A stretch of DNA of 35,691 bases from contig JAUQPE010000015.1 in assembly GCA_030550515.1 (NCBI GenBank), positions 16,319-52,009 of the forward strand, in the 5' to 3' direction. Under the pieces are notes generated by a model, which worked only from the letters and a program-made list of their open reading frames with translations, was not told the DNA's origin and ran no database searches. Positions 8,167-34,787 of the stretch are shown here, one piece after another. The number at the start of each line of letters is the position of its first letter. Positions within the stretch are counted from its first letter, which is position 1. A program made the translations under genes and the position numbers. The stretch comes from Thermotogota bacterium (lineage in GTDB: Bacteria; Thermotogota; Thermotogae; Thermotogales; Thermotogaceae).

Positions 8167-11154
8167 GTGAAGAGGACCATTCCTATCGCTTTGGTGCTCG
8201 TCCTTCTCCTTTCTTCCTTCCTGTTCCCTTACACCCTCAGGAAGGGAGACGTGCTGAGGATAGAAGTGCTTGGGTATCCAGAGCTCACGAGGGACTGCGC
8301 GGTCGACGTGGAAGGGAAAATCACGTTTCCGTACGTTGGCAGGGTCAAGGTGGAAGGCTTGTCGATCGATCAGACCTGTGAACTTTTAAGGGATAGGCTT
8401 TCAAAGTACCTGACTCAGCCGCAGGTGTTCGTGACCTTCCTTCAGATCGCCCCCAGGAACGTGTACGTCTCAGGCGTGGTGAACAGGGTCGTGAACATGG
8501 GGGTCCAGGACCTCACGATTTCCAAGCTCATCGCCAGCTTGGAAATTGACCTTTCAAACGTCGATCTTTCCAAGGTCAAACTCGTGCGGGGTGGAAGGGT
8601 CTCGGAGATCGATCTGTCGGGACTGCTCCACGGGGAGCTACCGAAGAACGACGTGGTTCTGATGGAGAACGACCAGATCGTCCTTCCCGAGAAGAGCTAC
8701 GAGACCTTTGTGAAGGTGATTGGAGCTGTGAGAAATCCCGGTATCTATCCCTACAAGAAGAACATGACGTTGCTCGATGCGATCTCTTTGGCCGGTGGCA
8801 CGACACCGGAAAGTTCCGGAAAGATCGTTTTGATCTCCGACACGATGCGCGAGCTTTCGGAAAGGGAAGTCTTCGAGAGGTTGGTCCTGTTGAAACCTGG
8901 TGACACCGTACACGTTCAGAAGGTTGAAGAGAGGTTCGCGTACATCGTTGGAGCCGTTTTGAGTCCGGGCGCCTACACGTTCAGCAAGGAAGAACCGCTC
9001 ACCTTGAAGAACCTCGTCGCGAAAGCTGGAGGGCTCTCTCAAAGCGAGGACTTCGTGGAAAAGGTCGTGATCGTGAGGGATGGGAAGGCGTATCAGGAGT
9101 TCGACGTCAAAGTTTTGAACGAATACGTGGAGCTACGCGTTGGTGACGTGGTGGAAGTGAAGGGTTATGAGAAGACGGAAGTCTTCCTGTCCGGCTTTGT
9201 GAACTTTCCAGGTGTTTACAGGATTTCCCCCAAGAGGACGTACACCTTCTTGGAACTCCTCTCGATGGCGGGTGGATTCAAGGGGAGTGTGGAGAACGTC
9301 GACAGGATCGTCATCAACAGGGAAGGCCGAGAAATCGTTTATCTTCCCGACGAGTTGAACTTCACCGTCCTGCCGGGTGACGTGGTGAGGGTGGAAGAGT
9401 ACACGCCGAAGAGGGCTTACGTGTTGGGGCTCGTCAGAAATCCTGGGCTCTACGTGTTTGGAAAGAGGGAGTCCTTCAACCTGAGGAACCTGATAGCCAA
9501 GGCGGGAGGGGTTGTCGACGAGAGGGCCGTTCTACGCGTGAGAGTAGGGGACAGATACTACAGCTTCGAAGAGATCCTCAGAGAGGAAATCCCACTTGTG
9601 GACGGTGTGTTCGTTTACGTGGAGAGAACGCCGGAGAGGTTCGTGTACCTCGTCGGAGACAACGTGTCCAGGAACGGAAGGATGGACTTCGACCGAACGG
9701 AACCCTTCACGGTCTCCACGGCGCTCAAAAAGTACGGGATCGAAGACTTTGCGCTTGTGAAGAGGCTCTCCCTGATCCGTGGTGGTAGAGAAGAAGTCCT
9801 AGATCCCATGAAGATCGCAAAAAGCGACGTGGAACTGGAGGTTGGGGACACGTTGGTCGTGAGGTTGGTCCAAGAGAGACGGGTTTACTTCACGGGAGAC
9901 GTCTACGGTTACGTGACCTTCGGCAAGGAAGAGGAAATGGACCTCGAAAAGGCCTTGGCGAAATTCGGAAGGATCGAGAGGAAGTACGTGAGGGAGTTGA
10001 AGGTCCACTCATCGACTGGAGTGCGCTCTTTTGCGGGTGTTTCGCCCTTTCCGTTGAACGATGGTGACGTGGTGGAGGTTTCGTTGAAGAAGACGGTGAG
10101 GGTTTACGTGGATGGTTTCGTGAAGGTTCCTGGACGGGTCTCGTTCGAGCCCGACGAGAGGGTGACGTTGGATCTCGCCATAGTGAAGGCAGGAAGTTAC
10201 AAGGACAGCGCGCTCTTCGAGCCGAAAGACGTCCAAGTTTTCAGGGACAACTGGCTCCTCACGATCCCGCTGGATCAGACCAGAAACTTCGAGTTGATGG
10301 ACAACGACTTCGTCTTCGTCAGATGGAAGGAGAAGACGCACGTCTACGTCTTCGGAGAAGGTGTGAACAACGCCTTGGTGACCTTCGAGAAGGAGGAGAC
10401 ACCGAACCTTCGGAACGTGTTGAGCAAAGTCGGAGGGGTCAAGCCTTCCGCTTCCAGGAAGATCGTTCTTGTTTCTCCAAGTGGGGAGAAGAGGGAAGTT
10501 CTCTACGAAGACGCGATGAACACGGGCGGACCTGTTTTGGAGAGCGGAACGGTGGTCTTCGTACCTGTGGAGACCGAGAACTTCGTGTACGTCGTCGGAG
10601 AAGTGGCAAGACCTGGGGCGTACCAGCTCGTTGGTGACATCACGTTGGTCAAACTCATCGCGCAGGCGGGAGGACTCAGCAACTGGGCGTCCAGGACCAG
10701 GATCGTTCTGAGAAGACAGAACGAAGAGTACGTCTACGATTTCTCCGACATGTCGAAGGTCCAGGAAGTGAGACTGCAAGCCGGTGACATCGTCTACGTA
10801 CCCCCCATCGAGACGAACATCGTGTACGTCCTTGGAAGCGTGAGGAACCCGGGGATAGTGCGCGTGGACAGGTACTCCACGGTCTTCGACGCCGTGATGA
10901 GGGCGGGAGGCCTCACGCAGTCCGCCGCTCCGAGCAGGATATTCCTCTTCAGGGGAGGTTTGGAGGGAGAGGTGGTCATCTGCGACCTCTCCGGGATCCT
11001 GTCAGGGAAAGGCGTGGGGGTGAACCCAGACGTTTCACCAGGTGACGTGATCTACGTTCCCAACAACCCGCTCGCGCAACTTTCCGAAGTGATCCCGATC
11101 GTGAGGGACGTCCTCGGACTGATAGGAACGGTGAAGGGTCTCATGGGGTGGTAG
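8167..11154 (+). CDS. Very long SLBB-repeat polysaccharide export protein (OPX/Wza-like)
   Basis: A 995-residue exported protein. After a signal peptide without lipobox cysteine (residues 1-22), residues about 23-95 match the Poly_export domain (YTLRKGDVLRIEVLGYPEL start). Then come 11 SLBB-like units of 73-82 residues, each opening with a pattern such as VYVxG and continuing with PG-x-Y, AGG and GD-V-x-V; openings lie near residues 98, 179, 255, 337, 416, 490, 571, 644, 724, 804 and 884. The last 25 residues (LSEVIPIVRDVLGLIGTVKG region) could form the amphipathic helix by which Wza-type proteins cross the outer membrane. Wza has far fewer SLBB units, so this is an extended version. The start is GTG 8167, seven bases after GAGGAGG. 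It leads an operon with two barrel proteins. Family assignment is firm; the transported polymer is unknown. Confidence 0.93.
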   Translation: MKRTIPIALVLVLLLSSFLFPYTLRKGDVLRIEVLGYPELTRDCAVDVEGKITFPYVGRVKVEGLSIDQTCELLRDRLSKYLTQPQVFVTFLQIAPRNVYVSGVVNRVVNMGVQDLTISKLIASLEIDLSNVDLSKVKLVRGGRVSEIDLSGLLHGELPKNDVVLMENDQIVLPEKSYETFVKVIGAVRNPGIYPYKKNMTLLDAISLAGGTTPESSGKIVLISDTMRELSEREVFERLVLLKPGDTVHVQKVEERFAYIVGAVLSPGAYTFSKEEPLTLKNLVAKAGGLSQSEDFVEKVVIVRDGKAYQEFDVKVLNEYVELRVGDVVEVKGYEKTEVFLSGFVNFPGVYRISPKRTYTFLELLSMAGGFKGSVENVDRIVINREGREIVYLPDELNFTVLPGDVVRVEEYTPKRAYVLGLVRNPGLYVFGKRESFNLRNLIAKAGGVVDERAVLRVRVGDRYYSFEEILREEIPLVDGVFVYVERTPERFVYLVGDNVSRNGRMDFDRTEPFTVSTALKKYGIEDFALVKRLSLIRGGREEVLDPMKIAKSDVELEVGDTLVVRLVQERRVYFTGDVYGYVTFGKEEEMDLEKALAKFGRIERKYVRELKVHSSTGVRSFAGVSPFPLNDGDVVEVSLKKTVRVYVDGFVKVPGRVSFEPDERVTLDLAIVKAGSYKDSALFEPKDVQVFRDNWLLTIPLDQTRNFELMDNDFVFVRWKEKTHVYVFGEGVNNALVTFEKEETPNLRNVLSKVGGVKPSASRKIVLVSPSGEKREVLYEDAMNTGGPVLESGTVVFVPVETENFVYVVGEVARPGAYQLVGDITLVKLIAQAGGLSNWASRTRIVLRRQNEEYVYDFSDMSKVQEVRLQAGDIVYVPPIETNIVYVLGSVRNPGIVRVDRYSTVFDAVMRAGGLTQSAAPSRIFLFRGGLEGEVVICDLSGILSGKGVGVNPDVSPGDVIYVPNNPLAQLSEVIPIVRDVLGLIGTVKGLMGW

Positions 11155-11155
11155 C

Positions 11156-12370
11156 GTGAAGAGATTCGTGTTCGCCCTCTCTTTACCGCTCCTGATGGGT
11201 TTACTGGCCTTCGGGAACTCCGTGACTTTCGAACTGGAGGGTCTGGAGCGGTTGCGTTTCCTCGCCGAGGCCAGCTATTCTTTCTCATTGGGCGACTTCT
11301 CTTTTAACTACAGCGGTGGGATCGGGAAGGGATACGGGATCGTCCACCCGTACATCGTCGAACCTCTGAGGAACTTCGTGGAGTTCTACTACTTCTCCAA
11401 GGCGAGTCTTGGGGTAAAGATGGGTCCCGTCGAGATGGAAGGAGGCATCTTGCGCGAAGAGAGGGGACCTGGTATCGACAAGCTCTTCCTCGACGACAAC
11501 CCCCGCTTTTACGGTTTTCCGGGACTTTCCCTGAGGGCCTCAGCGGGAAAGGTGAGATTTGAAACGCTCTGGTTGAACTTGAGCGTACCAGGACGAGCCT
11601 TCACAAAGGGATTCAACTACAGAACGCTGGTGTTGGAATTTGGAAACCTGAGCGTCGCGTACGAAGATTCCGTCGTCTACACGGACAAACCCTTCGACCC
11701 TTATTACTTCTTCGTTCCCCTGCCTCCTTTGGTGATACAAGAGTTCTGGTACCAGAGTTCTCCCTGGCAAAGCAGAATCGACCACAACGCGCTCATGGGT
11801 GGCTGGGTGGAGTACAGATTCGAAAACGGGAGGATCTACGCGGAATTTTTGATCGATGACCTTTCTTTGAACAGGCTCCTGGGCAGAGGTGGTTACCTGA
11901 ACCCAGACAAGGTTGCCTTCCTCTTCGGAGGAGAGTACGAAGGGTCCAGTTGGAAGCTCTACGCCGAGGTTTCTGGGGCGAGCGCCTACACGTTTCAAAG
12001 AACGCACCCGGACGTCCCGTACGAGTACACTTACTTCGATGAAGGTCCTATCGAGGAGAGGATGATCGGCTACAAGTACGGGGAGAATTCGCTCTCCTTC
12101 AAGGTCGGCGTGGAGACCGAGTTGATGGGGCTGAACCTGCGCTTGTCTTACCATTACCTGATCCACGGTGACAGGACCCCAGAGGTCCCGTGGCACGGTG
12201 GAGACATGCCGCCCGACACGAAGTGGTTGGTGGGCAACGTCGAACAGGGACACGGCTTCAGGGTTGACGTTTCCAAGAGTCTGAAAGGCTGGAGGGTCGG
12301 AGGATTTTTTGAAGCGAACAGTCGAACAGGGATGACGGTCGGGGTGGTGATGAGTCTTGCGCTTCCTTAG
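11156..12370 (+). CDS. Wzi-like outer-membrane beta-barrel protein, first copy
   Basis: A 404-residue protein with a signal peptide (MKRFVFALSLPLLMGLLAFG) and alternating, aromatic-rich strands typical of outer-membrane barrels. The segment GGILREERGPGIDKLFLDDN (about residues 96-115) resembles the conserved capsule-assembly (Wzi) element in which Arg, Gly-Pro-Gly and an Asp-Asn turn precede a Phe-Pro strand. Wzi proteins hold surface polysaccharide at the outer membrane. GTG 11156 follows the SLBB stop by one base, and the end overlaps the next barrel gene by 14 bases, so the three are co-translated. The similarity is motif-level only; a plain porin-like barrel remains possible. Confidence 0.82.
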   Translation: MKRFVFALSLPLLMGLLAFGNSVTFELEGLERLRFLAEASYSFSLGDFSFNYSGGIGKGYGIVHPYIVEPLRNFVEFYYFSKASLGVKMGPVEMEGGILREERGPGIDKLFLDDNPRFYGFPGLSLRASAGKVRFETLWLNLSVPGRAFTKGFNYRTLVLEFGNLSVAYEDSVVYTDKPFDPYYFFVPLPPLVIQEFWYQSSPWQSRIDHNALMGGWVEYRFENGRIYAEFLIDDLSLNRLLGRGGYLNPDKVAFLFGGEYEGSSWKLYAEVSGASAYTFQRTHPDVPYEYTYFDEGPIEERMIGYKYGENSLSFKVGVETELMGLNLRLSYHYLIHGDRTPEVPWHGGDMPPDTKWLVGNVEQGHGFRVDVSKSLKGWRVGGFFEANSRTGMTVGVVMSLALP

Positions 12371-13778
12371 TTTTCTTTCGATCATAATGCCTTTGATTCT
12401 CTTCTCGAGCCCCTTGGTCAACTCACTCGACGCCTCCACGATCTTGAACTGTCTGGAGGCTGGTGAGGCTCTACCAGGTTTTTTCCCCTTCCCTTCGCAC
12501 GCGAAGGAGAGCAAATTGTCCTTGGACGTTTCTCCTCTCGTGTATTTCGGTGGTAATTTTGGAAAGACGAAGGTGGGTTGGTTCGTGATCGCAGATCCCC
12601 CTTGGGAGAACGCCTACCTGTACGAGAGGACACCACCCATGCTGAACGTGAAGCTGGAGTGGAACTTGAAGAGGGTTTCCCTTTACACCGAGTTCGCGCT
12701 CAAGAACAACTACAACTTCTTTTACCAGAGTTTTGCCACCAACGTTCCTCCAATCTGGGAGGCCCATCTGGAAGGGGCAGACCTCAACTTTCCGTACACG
12801 GCTTACCTACTCTACGACGACGAGGACTTCTACGTCGTGGTCGGAAGATCAAAAACCAGGTGGGGAAGTTCCGATTTCCCAGTCGCCCTTTCCGACGTGA
12901 GCCCGTGCTTCAACCACTTCACCTTCTCGACGAGGGGAATGTTCGCTTACACGTTCCAGATCGTTTCCATCAACCCGGTGCTCACAAAGGTCGAGTGGGA
13001 AAAGCAAACAAGCCTCGTACCCGTGAACGCCGATCCAACCTCTCCCTACACGGAAAAGGTGAAGACGCTCGTCACGCACAGGCTCGACGTTTCACCGCTG
13101 AGATCTCTGAGGATCGGCTTTGGGGAGCTCACCATGGTCGGTGGAAAGGTGCCGGATCTGTTCTCCATAAGCCCCCTCGCCATCTGGCACAACAACTACA
13201 ACGAGGGTTACACGAACACGATGTTCAGCGTGGATTTCTCGTGGGTGCCGTTCAGAGGTTTCGAACTGCACGGAGAGTTCGTGTTGGACGATCTCGTGGG
13301 GAAGACAGAGCTTGGTGAAAAACCCACCGCGTACGCTTTCAACGTGGGAGTCAGAAAGGTTGTGGACACACCCTTGGGAAAGGTCCTGCTCGGGATAGAG
13401 TTCGCGAAGGCCAACGAGTTCGTTTACAACACCTTCCTTCCTTACCTGAAGTTCTACAACAGGATCGTCTACGTCACCAACCACCCTCAATCCAGAACCA
13501 TCGTGGACTACCCCATAGGTTTCGCGTTTGGACCGGACGCGAGCGCGCTCAACTTCTCTTTGGATTTCATCGGAAAGGACCTCACGTTGTGCCTCGACGT
13601 GTGCCACCTCTCGAAAGGACCGAACACCTTCCACACGGAGTACCCAAGAAGGGAAGAAGGGGAAACGAAGAGTTATTGGAGCGCAAGCCTCAAGGGAAAG
13701 TACAGATGGTTGCTCTTTTCGGTGGAAAAGCACGCCGAAAATTTGATGTTCGGCGTTGGTTTCTCTCACAGTTTCTGA
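12357..13778 (+). CDS. Wzi-like outer-membrane beta-barrel protein, second copy
   Basis: A 473-residue exported protein (signal peptide about residues 1-23) ending in Ser-Phe, the usual C-terminal aromatic of outer-membrane barrels. Residues 163-180 (GRSKTRWGSSDFPVALSD) match the Wzi-type signature of Gly-Arg, Arg-Trp-Gly and Leu-Ser-Asp more closely than the first copy does. The rest is strand-rich with many Tyr, Phe and Trp. TTG 12357 lies inside the end of the preceding gene in another frame, with a GGGGTGGTGATG stretch just before it, so coupling is likely. It is probably a functional partner of the first barrel rather than a recent duplicate, as the two share little sequence. The gene ends five bases from the convergent Wzz-kinase gene with no visible terminator. 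Confidence 0.85.
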   Translation: MRFLSFLSIIMPLILFSSPLVNSLDASTILNCLEAGEALPGFFPFPSHAKESKLSLDVSPLVYFGGNFGKTKVGWFVIADPPWENAYLYERTPPMLNVKLEWNLKRVSLYTEFALKNNYNFFYQSFATNVPPIWEAHLEGADLNFPYTAYLLYDDEDFYVVVGRSKTRWGSSDFPVALSDVSPCFNHFTFSTRGMFAYTFQIVSINPVLTKVEWEKQTSLVPVNADPTSPYTEKVKTLVTHRLDVSPLRSLRIGFGELTMVGGKVPDLFSISPLAIWHNNYNEGYTNTMFSVDFSWVPFRGFELHGEFVLDDLVGKTELGEKPTAYAFNVGVRKVVDTPLGKVLLGIEFAKANEFVYNTFLPYLKFYNRIVYVTNHPQSRTIVDYPIGFAFGPDASALNFSLDFIGKDLTLCLDVCHLSKGPNTFHTEYPRREEGETKSYWSASLKGKYRWLLFSVEKHAENLMFGVGFSHSF

Positions 13779-13783
13779 GCACC

Positions 13784-15700
13784 TCACCTCAACGGATAGC
13801 TCGAGTTCTTCCTCGTCAGGCCGTTCAGTATGAAACCGTCCACCTTTTCCAGAGAGGAAAGGAGCTTGAGACTTTCTCGAAGCGTGTGTTCCAACCTCAC
13901 CACCACGTAGACCGTGTCCGCCCTCTTGGCGAGTAGCAAGGTTTCCAGCGCATCGACTGTCGGCGCGTCCACCACGACACGGTCGTACCCTTCCCTGAAG
14001 GAATCCATCAGCTCTGGTTTTTTTAAGATCACGTTCAAATCCTTCTTCTCGAAATCACCGGGCACGTCGGAGTCCGAAACCAGCAAAACTTTCTCCCTTT
14101 CAGAAAGCAAGGAAGCCAAGCAGCTCGAAAGGAAAGTCTTGCCCGCTCCGTCCTCCAGACTCGTCAGGAGGATCACCTTACCCGCTTTGGCCGCCGCAAT
14201 TCCCAGGGCCTTCTTCGCTTTCGCGAGATCGTCGGTGAGGGGAACGCGCGCGACGATCCTGTCACGGTTGAGGTAATGTTCCGCTTCGCTTTCAAGACCG
14301 ATCCTTTTGTCGGTTGCCTCCAATAGGAAGACCAGGAAGATTCCAAGGAAGACGCCCAGCGCCCCACCGAGCGCCAGAGAAAGTTTTTTGTCGGGTTTCG
14401 AAGGAGAAAGCGGGGGGATCGCCCAATCGACCACGCTCACCACACCGGCCGCCCCTACTTCGGAAACGAGCGTTTGGTACTTCGCTTGAAGCAAAGCCGT
14501 GTACATGGCCTCTTTCACCCTGTAATCCCTCTCGAGCTCTATGAGCTGCTTCTCTATAGAGGGAAGTTTCGCGAGTTCTTTTTCCATGTCCTCGTAGAGC
14601 TTCCTGAAGGCTTCGTGCTGAACCTGGAACAGGATGCGGTTGACTTCGGTCTTGATGTAGTTCGTCAAAGTTTCCTGGTACACGGGATTCAACGTCTTTT
14701 TCAGTTGAGACGCGATGAGCCTTTCGAGCTCTTCCTCCAGCTGCTTTTTGGTCTCTTCGAGTTCCGCTCTCTTTTGCCTCAACTCGGCGTTCCCTGCTGG
14801 GTACTTTTCGGAAAGACCCGCGATCTCCACCTGTAAGGTGAGGATCCTGTTTTTGAGCTGCGTGACGATCGGGTCGAAGGTGACGCTGTCGCTGACCTTT
14901 TCCAGTTCGACGTCGAAACGTTTCAGCTGGTCGGAAAGGAAAGAGAGTTGAACCTTCGCCGCGTCCAGACCTATCCGTGATTCCTCCATCTTTTGGAGAA
15001 GATTTGCGTGCTTTTCTATCAACGTTTTAAGCTGGGTTTCAACGGCGTAAATCTTGTTCTTCTCTTTGAAAATCCTGAGCCTTTCCTGAGCTTCGAGGAG
15101 TTCTACTTCAAACTGCGGGAGTATTCGATCTATGTATTCTCTCTTCAGAGTATTCTGGTCCTTCACGACGTCGCCTCTGATCTTCAGATAGTTCTCAACT
15201 ATCCTGTTCGCGAACTTGCTCGCAAGCGTGGGATCGGAGCACGAGAACTTCACTTCCAGGAGGTTTGCATCCCTTACCCGTTTCACGTTCACGATCTTTT
15301 TGTTCACAAGGTAACCGTAGAGGGATACGCTCAAATCTTCAACTGCCAAACCTCTTTTCAGCGCTTTTTCGATGTCTTCTTTCTTCATAAGCTTTTCCAC
15401 GAGACCAAGTTCCTCGATGACCGGAAGGAGGTTTCTCCTGGAAAGAATGAGCTCGATCTCGTCTTGAAGCCCCCCTCCCGTTCCAACGCCTCCCAGCAGG
15501 ATGTCCAGTGTTGGATTTCCGGTTCTGATTCCACTTGTAGGAGGAATCCTGATCTTGACAACTGCTTCGTACTGCGGTTTGGCAACGAGGAGGTACACGC
15601 CCGTTGCGAGAACGCTCAAAACCACAACCGTCCAGAAGACCAACTGTCTCTTTCTGAAGATCGATAGTAGATCCTTCAACGTCAGCTCTCTGTCTTCCAC
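13784..15700 (-). CDS. Wzz-like chain-length protein with a reduced BY-kinase domain
   Basis: A 638-residue inner-membrane protein. It begins with a Wzz segment and transmembrane helix (about residues 20-40), followed by a large periplasmic part with long coiled coils (about 170-400), a second helix (about 440-460) and a cytoplasmic P-loop domain. Walker A is SLEDGAGKTFLSS (Lys521), Walker A' is LLVSDSD and Walker B is VVVDAP. The distance from A' to B is only about 30 residues, less than in typical bacterial tyrosine kinases, and the tail has one tyrosine (NSSYPLR) instead of a cluster. It likely sets polymer length and couples to the SLBB exporter on the opposite strand. GTG 15700 lies within the end of nadE (19-base overlap), with GGAGGG just upstream. 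Kinase activity is doubtful. Confidence 0.92.
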   Translation of the reverse strand: MEDRELTLKDLLSIFRKRQLVFWTVVVLSVLATGVYLLVAKPQYEAVVKIRIPPTSGIRTGNPTLDILLGGVGTGGGLQDEIELILSRRNLLPVIEELGLVEKLMKKEDIEKALKRGLAVEDLSVSLYGYLVNKKIVNVKRVRDANLLEVKFSCSDPTLASKFANRIVENYLKIRGDVVKDQNTLKREYIDRILPQFEVELLEAQERLRIFKEKNKIYAVETQLKTLIEKHANLLQKMEESRIGLDAAKVQLSFLSDQLKRFDVELEKVSDSVTFDPIVTQLKNRILTLQVEIAGLSEKYPAGNAELRQKRAELEETKKQLEEELERLIASQLKKTLNPVYQETLTNYIKTEVNRILFQVQHEAFRKLYEDMEKELAKLPSIEKQLIELERDYRVKEAMYTALLQAKYQTLVSEVGAAGVVSVVDWAIPPLSPSKPDKKLSLALGGALGVFLGIFLVFLLEATDKRIGLESEAEHYLNRDRIVARVPLTDDLAKAKKALGIAAAKAGKVILLTSLEDGAGKTFLSSCLASLLSEREKVLLVSDSDVPGDFEKKDLNVILKKPELMDSFREGYDRVVVDAPTVDALETLLLAKRADTVYVVVRLEHTLRESLKLLSSLEKVDGFILNGLTRKNSSYPLR

Positions 15701-31399: not shown

Positions 31400-32311
31400 C
31401 TGAGCAAGAAGAAGAATTTCTTCTTCGCTTTTTCAATCATTCTTCTTGTGTTGATAGTGTTCTTTCTGTACGGTTACATCGTCTTCGAAATAGACAGGCT
31501 TTACGGAGGAAGGATGTCACCCTTCCAAGATTGGCGTAGTTATCTGGCGTTTCTGGCTTCGAAGATACCGTTCTTGAGGGAGAGGGTGAGGTACCAACCC
31601 ATGAAGATCGCTACCCCTTCCGAGCAGTTCTCGGAGGTTTTTCAGCGCTACATAGAGATATACAATCAAAAGATCGAAGAACTCACCAGGAAAGAGGAAG
31701 AGATGAAGAGAGAACAAGACGTGGTGAACGCACAGAAGAAAGTACTAGAGCAAACGTTGAAAGAACTCGAAACGCTGAGGAACGAACTGATGGTGGAAAA
31801 GAACAAGATCCAATCTTATCAGAAACAGCTGAAGGAACTCATCGATGTCCTTCTGAGCACGGACCCAAGAAACTTGGCGAGCGCGTTGAACCAGCTCGAT
31901 GAGGAAACGCTCGCCGCGGTGTTCAAAAACATGGACCCAACCAACGCTGGAGAATTCTTGGAGGCGCTTTCGCGCGTGAACGCTGAAAAGGCAGCTAACG
32001 TGATGAGAAAGATGATCGGTGTTCGCGAGATCCAGCAGAGAATGGAAGAGCTCATCGAGAACGCCAAAAAAAGTTTGGAAGAAGTCGTAAGGAGGGAACA
32101 ATCCATCTTCCTGAGAGAGAATTACTTGAAGGTTGCTGCAGCAGTTTTGAACGAGCTTGAACCGACATCCGCCGTCGATTTCCTGAAAAGAGAAGGGTTT
32201 GATTCAAACACGGTTAGGACCGTGCTATCCCTTATGGACAGAGTGAAGGCCCAAGCCCTTCTGAAGTACATTCAGGAGCGAAATCCTGAACTTTTGGGGG
32301 AGAAGAGATGA
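31400..32311 (+). CDS. MotE/YlxF-like flagellar protein with MgtE_N-like domain, CTG start
   Basis: An inner-membrane anchored protein of about 303 residues. The N-terminus (SKKKNFFFAFSIILLVLIVF) is a single signal anchor; it is followed by a long coiled coil (about residues 75-145) and an MgtE_N-like helical repeat (STDPRNLASALNQLDEETLA onward), the layout of MotE/YlxF chaperones of the flagellar motor. The frame has no ATG, GTG or TTG between 31394 and 31448. A strong GGGAGGGAGG (31386-31395) points to CTG at 31400. The GTG at 31448 would cut the membrane segment and has no ribosome binding site. The gene precedes fliK with an ATGA overlap, as ylxF does in Bacillus. Confidence 0.85.
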   Translation: MSKKKNFFFAFSIILLVLIVFFLYGYIVFEIDRLYGGRMSPFQDWRSYLAFLASKIPFLRERVRYQPMKIATPSEQFSEVFQRYIEIYNQKIEELTRKEEEMKREQDVVNAQKKVLEQTLKELETLRNELMVEKNKIQSYQKQLKELIDVLLSTDPRNLASALNQLDEETLAAVFKNMDPTNAGEFLEALSRVNAEKAANVMRKMIGVREIQQRMEELIENAKKSLEEVVRREQSIFLRENYLKVAAAVLNELEPTSAVDFLKREGFDSNTVRTVLSLMDRVKAQALLKYIQERNPELLGEKR

Positions 32312-34137
32312 GAGTCGCAAAAGTTCTCCCGAAGAGCTCTTTTGTTCCTTCGAATTCTATTCACACGAAAAGAATCAGGGGGAAAACTGAGGAGTTTGCG
32401 ATCTTTCTTTCAGCATCGAAAAACGAGATAAACCAACTCAAAAAAACGATATCCCCGAAAAGCGTGGAAGCTAGAAAAATTGGTGCCTTGGAAAACTTTC
32501 CGAAACCTTCCCTTGACGAGGCGAAAAGACCACCGCTGCAGCGCGTTGTCGAAAAAAGGAAAGAGGAGAAGCTTTCATTCGAGGATCGAAAGCTTGTGAG
32601 GGAACCCCGACGAACTCGTGAAGCTCGCCCGAAAGAGTGTATTGATTCAACAAACCTATCTCAGGCTTCCAACTTGGTGCGTTTGGATGGGAACATCCCA
32701 GAGCGATCGAAAAACCTTGAGTCCAAGGTGAACGCGAAAGTGACACAAGATCCGGTAACGCCTTTTTCCAACCGTTTAGAGGAGCGTGTTACCCAGGATC
32801 TGAAAGTTGATGTCAACTGTCGATTCGGAGAGAGATCCCTCGAAGTGGGACAAGACGGGAAAGGAGAGCACGAAAATTTGGAAACATCGATGGCTGAGAA
32901 GACCAAGACCTCGACTGAAAGTTTCGCTCCCTCCGAATCGAAGGCGATCAATGCCCACAAAGACGAATCCTTCGCGTCTTCTTCGGCAGGGATAACATCA
33001 ACCGTTTTCCAAGTTGTTGAAGCTGGAGGTGAAAAGGCAACGAAGGAAGAGCCCAAGACGCGACATTTGACACCAACTGTCCCGAAAGGCGATGAGGAAG
33101 TTCTCCTCAAATTTACTTTTACTTTGAGTTCAAACGAGCTTTCTGAACACTTCGCGGTCGAATCGGACCAAATTTTCACAACGAAAGAAAGAAGCGCATT
33201 CACACCAAGAAAAGAAATCGAAGATGTCGCAGGAAAGGTCGTACAAACGCAGGTTCCCGTCAAGGAAACGCCCGCATCACACTACAAGGATATTCCTCTC
33301 ATCCGCGAAAGAACATCTCTCAAAGATCAAAAGGACGTGTTAGCGTTCGGTGAGAGGAATTACGAGTTCGAGGCTTTCGCTTTCGTGCGGAAAAGTGTTG
33401 AAAAAGAAACGGACGAAAGGGTACCCCTAGAAATCGAGAACACCGAGCGCATCGCCAAAAACGCATTTTCCTTCCACGCGGTGGAGCCACAACGTCGAAA
33501 AAGTGAGGAAGGATCCATAAACCATCACGAAATGGGATCTCCTACGATTCCTTTGGAACAGCATCCGAAAAATGCCGGAGAATTCGAGGCCTTCCAGGAA
33601 GTAGTGCGCGACACCCGCATCGCGGAAGTTCCAGTTCTCTACGAAAGACGTGAAAGGCTTGAGAGTTTCACGGAGACGCTCGGTGAAAGTTTGTCGGAGC
33701 TAGTTCAACACGCCAGGGCGCATGAAGCTTACATCATCCAGGGAACGCCGAGAGAAGGGGAAATGGTATCAGTCCATTCCATACCCAAAATTGTCGAGAG
33801 GATGTACGTTCAAAAACAAGAGAGGGCTCTCATGACGCTCAACCCGCCGGAGCTCGGCAGAGTAGAGGTGGTGATCGAAAAGAGCGGTGAAGAGGTGCGC
33901 GTGGTGTTGAAGGTTTTCACTGAAGAAGCCAAGAACGCTTTGGAGAGGGAAGTCCCACAGTTGGTTGAAAGGCTTTCCGAGAGAGGCTTCGACGTGCACG
34001 TTCAGGTTGAAAGACACCAGGAAAGAGACCTCCTCCAGGAGGGAAAGGACAGGAGGGAAAGAAGGCAAAGGGAGAAGTACCCGAACAGAACAGAGGGTGA
34101 GGACTTCTCCGAAACGATGAAGGAGGTGGTTGGATGA
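32308..34137 (+). CDS. fliK: Flagellar hook-length control protein
   Basis: FliK measures the hook and switches export specificity of the flagellar type III apparatus. Of 609 residues, the first 450 or so are a low-complexity, Lys/Glu/Ser/Thr-rich region with little fixed structure, as expected of the ruler part. The C-terminal Flg_hook domain (about 500-590) has the signature MTLNPPELGRVEVVIEKSG, then VVLKVFTEEAKNALE, a leucine-rich helix and the SERGFDVHVQVE strand. ATG 32308 overlaps the preceding stop, with a GGGGGAGAAG site upstream, and the end overlaps flgD in the same ATGA way. The ruler region is A+T-richer than the rest of the window, normal for an unconstrained segment. Confidence 0.93.
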   Translation: MRVAKVLPKSSFVPSNSIHTKRIRGKTEEFAIFLSASKNEINQLKKTISPKSVEARKIGALENFPKPSLDEAKRPPLQRVVEKRKEEKLSFEDRKLVREPRRTREARPKECIDSTNLSQASNLVRLDGNIPERSKNLESKVNAKVTQDPVTPFSNRLEERVTQDLKVDVNCRFGERSLEVGQDGKGEHENLETSMAEKTKTSTESFAPSESKAINAHKDESFASSSAGITSTVFQVVEAGGEKATKEEPKTRHLTPTVPKGDEEVLLKFTFTLSSNELSEHFAVESDQIFTTKERSAFTPRKEIEDVAGKVVQTQVPVKETPASHYKDIPLIRERTSLKDQKDVLAFGERNYEFEAFAFVRKSVEKETDERVPLEIENTERIAKNAFSFHAVEPQRRKSEEGSINHHEMGSPTIPLEQHPKNAGEFEAFQEVVRDTRIAEVPVLYERRERLESFTETLGESLSELVQHARAHEAYIIQGTPREGEMVSVHSIPKIVERMYVQKQERALMTLNPPELGRVEVVIEKSGEEVRVVLKVFTEEAKNALEREVPQLVERLSERGFDVHVQVERHQERDLLQEGKDRRERRQREKYPNRTEGEDFSETMKEVVG

Positions 34138-34787
34138 TACACGACGTCTCGTTCCTTTACTATTCCACGTTGGCGGGGATCAGGAGTAAGGTTAGTGGGG
34201 TTCTCGACAAAGATGCCTTCCTTCAACTTCTGATACAAGGGTTGAAGTCCCAAAATCCACTCGAACCGATGGAAACCAAGGACATGATAGCCCAGTTTTC
34301 ACAACTCACGAGTCTAGAACAGGTGATCAACCTCACCAAGGCGGTGGAAGAGTTCGTGAGGGTCCAGACCAGCGTGAATCCAGCTCAACTTGCTTCTTTG
34401 GTTGGAAAGTACGTCGTCGTGAAGAACAACACCTTGTCCGTCGTGAACGGACAGGCGGATGGTATCGTCTTTTACCTCGAGCGAGAGTCGAGGGTGATCG
34501 TACGGATAGAAGACGAGAACGGAAACGTGGTCAGGGTTGAAGATCTGGGTTACGTGAAGCCGGGGATGAGGGCTTGGCAGTGGAACGCGAGGGACAACAA
34601 CGGCATACCCGTGAGGGACGGAAAATACGCGTACCACGTTTACAGGGTGAACGAGAAAGGTGAATTGGAAGACATTGGCGGAATAGACGGAGGCACCGTG
34701 AGCGCCGTTCAGATCAAAAATGGGAAGGCGTACGTTTTGGTGAACGGAAACCTTTACCCTGTCGAATCCATAGTTGAGATCTCGTGA
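34134..34787 (+). CDS. flgD: Flagellar hook assembly (capping) protein
   Basis: FlgD forms the cap under which hook subunits polymerise. The 217-residue protein has the N-terminal FlgD motif (DAFLQLLIQGLKSQNPLEPM, then MIAQFSQLTSLEQV), and a C-terminal half with the tudor-like/FnIII part (GMRAWQWNARDNNGIPVRDG, the typical W-x-G-x-x-x-G-x-x-x-x-DG turn). ATG 34134 is coupled to the fliK stop, with AAGGAGG upstream at 34121-34127. The hook gene follows 15 bases after the stop, the arrangement seen in many flagellated bacteria. Confidence 0.95.
   Translation: MIHDVSFLYYSTLAGIRSKVSGVLDKDAFLQLLIQGLKSQNPLEPMETKDMIAQFSQLTSLEQVINLTKAVEEFVRVQTSVNPAQLASLVGKYVVVKNNTLSVVNGQADGIVFYLERESRVIVRIEDENGNVVRVEDLGYVKPGMRAWQWNARDNNGIPVRDGKYAYHVYRVNEKGELEDIGGIDGGTVSAVQIKNGKAYVLVNGNLYPVESIVEIS

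Follow-up and report, generated by a model that had tools for sequence, protein, structure and literature searches.

Here we show that the number of SLBB units in an outer-membrane polysaccharide export (OPX) protein and its relatives follows the length of the Ompalpha-type rods encoded in the same genomes, in two phyla, each added unit corresponding to roughly the height expected of a ring. The protein is encoded in a stretch of DNA of 35,691 nucleotides, the whole of which was analysed and is referred to as the window. We consider it probable that this protein builds a Wza-like conduit of stacked rings, docked on a PCP protein, with a number of rings matched to the gap between the two membranes. 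The wider proposal, that Thermotogota and Limnochordia possess a complete trans-periplasmic conduit with rings counted to the gap, tuned in evolution one ring at a time in its middle part, and with the gap of a species readable from two genes, is one that we favour with some reserve. Saidi et al. (2022, PMC9603273) set out four models as to whether OPX proteins form a closed trans-periplasmic channel or leave the polymer uncovered. The way in which the unit count keeps pace with the spacer in both phyla, by roughly the height of one ring for each unit, speaks for a structure that spans the periplasm.

Domain make-up of the OPX protein

The OPX gene (8167..11154, forward strand) encodes 995 amino acids from a GTG start at 8167, which is preceded by a GGAGG ribosome-binding site, to a stop codon at 11154, and no comparable reading frame is present on the reverse strand of this interval. 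The protein begins with a signal peptide read from the sequence (residues 1-21, 8167..8229, boundary approximate) that has no lipobox. Next comes the Poly_export (PES) domain (residues 22-98, 8230..8460), the predicted dock on the PCP apex; the search with PF02563 that the first-pass annotation had proposed returned this domain at residues 22-91 with a value of 3.8e-21, above the Pfam cut-off. That annotation had also counted 11 SLBB units of about 78 residues behind a single Poly_export domain, and a unit HMM, built from the window protein's own units and then iterated over its relatives, found exactly 11 of them with a mean length of 78.9 aa, tiling residues 99-966 with linker-sized gaps only. 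The doubt that most units might turn out to be something other than SLBB was dispelled by the same profile, to which all 11 belong with E ≤ 3.3e-9 (range 3.3e-9 to 7.5e-20). Pfam itself detects the fold (SLBB_2 at 1.8e-62, SLBB at 1.2e-56); its counts were rejected as a measure of unit number, as it separates just 6-9 of the 11 units.

All units lie on the forward strand and were delimited by the unit HMM. They comprise unit 1 (8461..8706, a conserved end unit, E = 3.3e-9), unit 2 (8707..8934), unit 3 (8935..9180), unit 4 (9181..9414, missing from a 10-unit Pseudothermotoga relative), unit 5 (9415..9639), unit 6 (9640..9882), unit 7 (9883..10101), unit 8 (10102..10341), unit 9 (10342..10581, missing from the 10-unit relative G020), unit 10 (10582..10818, E = 7.5e-20) and unit 11 (10819..11070), the last being the most conserved in the pairwise unit alignments of the window protein. 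The array is closed by an amphipathic helix (residues 969-995, 11071..11151, forward strand) that aligns with the C-terminal pore helix of Wza. A possible membrane helix had been suggested here, of which the helix itself stands (972-994) while its classical membrane character does not, the segment being amphipathic and hydrophobic instead.

The AlphaFold2 model of the monomer (13 aligned sequences, mean pLDDT 76) consists of 11 repeats of one strand-helix-strand pattern, followed by a terminal helix at 972-994; its pTM of 0.28 makes the relative placement of the domains unreliable, and it describes the monomer only. Comparison of this model with the PDB by Foldseek gave the crystal and cryo-EM structures of Wza as the best matches (E about 1e-15), and phmmer aligned Wza with two stretches, the Poly_export domain and the last two units together with the C-terminal helix, Wza being the best match in both sequence and fold. 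The window protein is a Wza-family OPX protein, a family that is already known, and it shows the features by which the family is recognized, namely a Poly_export domain followed by at least one SLBB, a secretion signal and a nearby PCP gene. Like it, E. coli Wza (PDB 2J58; Wza-Wzc, PMC12881504) combines Poly_export, SLBB and a C-terminal helix with a PCP partner, but Wza is a lipoprotein of 140 A with 2 SLBB, whereas the window protein has 11 SLBB, no lipobox and no Pfam match to Wza_C.

The assignment to a class is less simple. Class 1 OPX proteins have a Wza_C helix and up to 14 SLBB, about 78% of them being lipoproteins, and class 3 proteins have neither Wza_C nor GfcC and carry SLBB(1-7) (PMC9603273). 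Both share the Poly_export-SLBB(n) plan, and 11 units fall within the published range (up to 14 in class 1, up to 7 in class 3; PMC9603273). For the window protein no Wza_C (PF18412) was listed at E ≤ 10, where filters drop most weak matches, nor was a GfcC domain listed. By Pfam domains it would be of class 3, yet its 11 SLBB exceed the range published for that class, SLBB(1-7). Among the Thermotogota OPX proteins, 75 reach 700 aa or more, and none of these has a lipobox-like motif, which would be expected if the length of the tube kept a lipid attached at the N-terminus from reaching the outer membrane.

Unit number and rod length in two phyla

As a proxy for the distance between the membranes we took the length of the Ompalpha-type rod, recognized by an SLH domain, a coiled coil and a hydrophobic C-terminal anchor. 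In T. maritima OmpA1/Ompalpha is the described spacer of the toga, which stands at about 50 nm (PMC3387000), and its Ompalpha-type rod has a coil of 316 residues. A Poly_export match was present in 83 of 103 Thermotogota genomes, almost always as a single gene. The remaining 20, of which some are incomplete, gave no such match, and the majority of them nevertheless have SLH proteins. The counting of SLBB units in orthologs, as the first-pass annotation had advised, yielded 8 to 20 units in intact Thermotogota genes (a short gene of family f5, G058, has 5). Petrotogaceae-like genomes stand at the lower end with 8-9 units, Thermotoga has 11, and Mesotoga-like genomes and Kosmotoga are at 18-20. 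The Kosmotoga-like G056 has 20, and Thermotogota relatives with 18-20 units go beyond the published maximum of 14 (PMC9603273).

Across 69 Thermotogota genomes the length of the SLBB array was strongly correlated with rod length (r = 0.926; Spearman 0.92), and HMM unit counts used instead of array length gave a very similar value (r = 0.917). In genus g20, with units of about 68 aa, the HMM count differs from array length/79; both regressions agree. The correlation was recovered from genus means (r = 0.91, n = 29 genera) and within families (pooled r = 0.86; permutation p = 5e-5), survived the removal of any one family, and was found with the mean rod paralogue (r = 0.92) as well as with the shortest (r = 0.85). 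Family f2 taken alone, whose counts barely vary, showed no such relation. The length of the PCP was weakly correlated (r = 0.44) and on that account was set aside as a scaling partner.

A correlation of this kind might be a by-product of shared ancestry, or of a lineage-wide lengthening of proteins, and mechanically meaningless. Both traits have a strong phylogenetic signal (lambda 0.92-1), as such a reading would have it, and the plain (unweighted) contrasts over all RpoB tips, which include near-zero branches, gave r = 0.04, also in its favour and the main statistical caveat of this analysis. This low value arises because near-zero branches with unit differences (G015/G042) dominate the contrasts, and without the five largest of them r is 0.73. 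We used PGLS in place of unweighted contrasts, obtaining on the RpoB tree 21.9 ± 2.1 rod residues per unit for genera (p = 9e-11) and 19.3 ± 1.7 for all Thermotogota tips (p = 7e-17), and on the OPX-ends tree 22.8 ± 1.6 for Thermotogota (p = 9e-22). The agreement of PGLS on two trees, the within-family permutation, the length of RpoB, which taken as a control did not scale with the array (r = -0.05), and the equal slope and intercept of a second phylum all speak against such a by-product, which we regard as very improbable.

That second phylum was reached through relatives of the window protein with 9-16 units in MAGs of Bacillota (Limnochordia). An Ompalpha-like rod profile was matched in 37 of the 37 OPX-bearing genomes searched in this group, and the 22 genomes with a complete OPX gene and a rod gave r = 0.951 with a slope of 24.7 ± 1.8, neither slope nor intercept being different from those of Thermotogota. 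One genome (G105; 16 units, rod of 472) was missed by the automatic anchor filter and added by hand, with r at 0.94-0.95 either way. On the OPX-ends tree PGLS estimated 18.9 ± 2.1 rod residues per unit in Limnochordia (p = 1e-8) and 21.6 ± 1.3 over all 91 genomes (p = 2e-29). The idea from which the work started, that a long tube may suit the wide periplasm beneath the toga, is in this way supported, SLBB number following the length of the toga-spacing Ompalpha rod in both phyla. Elsewhere, no SLH match was found in the one genome searched of Photobacterium, which has 8-unit OPX proteins. Armatimonadota (L298, L299, L359) have OPX proteins with 5 SLBB units, and the one genome searched among them, that of L298, also encodes SLH proteins of about 700 aa, which could make this group a third lineage for comparing the two lengths.

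This scaling contrasts with the published absence of a length relation, since Saidi et al. (2022) found the length of OPX proteins to be unrelated to measured periplasm width in 92 pairs from many phyla (PMC9603273). Their set probably comprises mostly short OPX proteins from very different envelopes, and the two results need not be in conflict. In the literature searched we did not find a co-scaling of OPX proteins with SLH spacers. Ompalpha/OmpA1 (PMC3387000), SlpA and OmpM (PMC9388160, PMC10628300) are SLH-coiled-coil spacers that keep the outer membrane at a distance from the wall, and not an export tube; rods of the Ompalpha type share their genomes with OPX. The closest parallel is Lpp/RcsF of E. 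coli (PMC5736177), where an envelope-crossing protein must likewise fit the length of the spacer. That case is engineered, while OPX and rod form a natural record in two phyla and in discrete units. The scaling of unit number with the spacer brings a sequence-based estimate of envelope spacing in uncultured bacteria within reach, and it opens the question of a closed channel to simple experiments.

Proposed ring geometry and changes in length

The fitted line relates rod residues to SLBB unit number as about 59 + 22.5 x units. A coiled coil rises by 1.485 A per residue, and about 22 rod residues per unit correspond to about 32 A, with the individual fits ranging from 28 to 37 A. WzaB, composed of Poly_export and one SLBB, has been put at about 62 A, that is about 31 A per domain (PMC9603273), and our slope agrees with the 31 A or so expected per ring. 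We propose that the tube rests on the PCP at the inner membrane through its Poly_export domain and that the 11 SLBB domains would stack, presumably as an octamer, into about 11 rings of approximately 31 A. Eleven such rings together with the PES domain and the PCP (110-165 A, the upper value from PMC9603273 and the lower estimated by us on the basis of the 220-A Wzc, PMC12881504) add up to 48-54 nm, against the spacing of about 50 nm of the T. maritima toga (PMC3387000).

The way in which length changes is visible in the arrays themselves. Unit-by-unit alignment of 11 pairs showed that relatives differ by entire units located mid-array, and units 1-2 and the last two were paired in every one of the 11 alignments. 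The number of rings may be adjusted by such gains or losses of whole units. One genome encodes two OPX proteins that share 84% identity, and each of them has 14 units. In genus g20 (family f9) the OPX proteins of L135/L136 and L139/L140 differ by 1-4 near-alike tandem units of about 68 aa, probably the result of recent unit duplication.

Length matching, mid-array indels and conserved ends would equally be predicted if the SLBB array were a beads-on-a-string tether or polymer-binding strut running from the PCP to the outer membrane, its length still matched to the gap, and the linear polyubiquitin-like strings that Foldseek also returned for the OPX model would suit such a tether. The best structural relatives, on the other hand, are octameric Wza channels, the proximity of the PCP and the Wza-like C-terminal helix favour a function in export, and the slope suits close-packed rings, all of which renders the tether unlikely in our view.

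The stacked conduit, which we prefer, leaves the question of what is matched to what, as the SLBB-rod correlation carries no direction. The array itself could be the ruler and determine the gap around it, with rods adapted to the OPX protein. Against this, the described spacer of the toga is OmpA1/Ompalpha (PMC3387000), and most of the 20 Thermotogota genomes, out of 103, in which OPX was not found have SLH proteins, even if some of these genomes are incomplete. The data fit toga spacers that set the gap and a tube that matches it better than a repeat-number ruler, to which we give little credence. The Ompalpha-type SLH rods would accordingly be what holds the gap open, the tube following, a direction that we infer.

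Several genomes depart from a strict matching. The Kosmotoga-like L120 and L121 have 20 units and a rod of about 437, short of the line, which predicts about 510; a further rod, or an envelope that departs from linearity, might account for this. L099 (G015) and L101 (G042), with near-identical RpoB, have 12 and 13 units and rods that differ in the opposite sense (386 vs 369), and form a natural pair that tests, and goes against, a strict matching.

Gene neighbourhood and possible exit across the outer membrane

The locus is a polysaccharide export locus. Convergent with OPX lies a gene for a PCP (13784..15700, reverse strand) with Wzz, GNVR and a shortened tyrosine-kinase-like domain, and OPX and PCP genes are close together in many Thermotogota loci. 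The kinase-like domain is unusually short (about 130 aa) with Walker-type motifs kept, and the C-terminus, NSSYPLR, has no tyrosine cluster. The genome also encodes an initiating sugar-phosphate transferase (PF02397, 5.7e-65).

Two genes for secreted proteins follow OPX on the same strand. The first (11156..12370), which begins one base past the OPX stop codon, encodes a protein of 404 aa without Pfam or NCBIfam family, a possible beta-barrel partner. The second (12357..13778) encodes a weakly Wzi-like protein of 473 aa (PF14052, 1.2e-4) with a C-terminal Phe, as in porins, and is a possible outer-membrane partner. Both are aromatic-rich (16%) and have signal-like N-termini. The model of the 404-aa protein (pLDDT 37) was too poor for a fold search, and the 473-aa protein matched no solved structure at E ≤ 1.

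Either the C-terminal helix of OPX or a neighbouring beta-barrel would carry the sugar polymer across the outer membrane. If the barrel does so, the tube would stop short of the outer membrane, on its inner side, and the 404-aa or the 473-aa protein would let the polymer out, an arrangement that agrees with the matched conduit up to its last step and that we hold to have a real, if somewhat below even, chance of being correct. It draws on the position of two secreted candidate barrels directly downstream, which accompany OPX in Thermotoga-like genomes and lie near it in Mesoaciditoga, on the OPX-Wzp precedent of Myxococcus (PMC9603273) and on the unmatched Pfam Wza_C. It is weakened by the C-terminal helix, which is conserved across Thermotogota OPX proteins and aligns with that of Wza, by the low confidence of the 404-aa model, and by the surroundings of OPX in most other families, in which no sequence homologue of either candidate turned up.

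Farther along the window (31448-34787, forward strand) lie flagellar genes, for a MgtE_N/FliG_M-like protein, the hook-length control protein FliK and FlgD. The flagellar rod is another part that crosses the envelope, and it too may scale with the gap.
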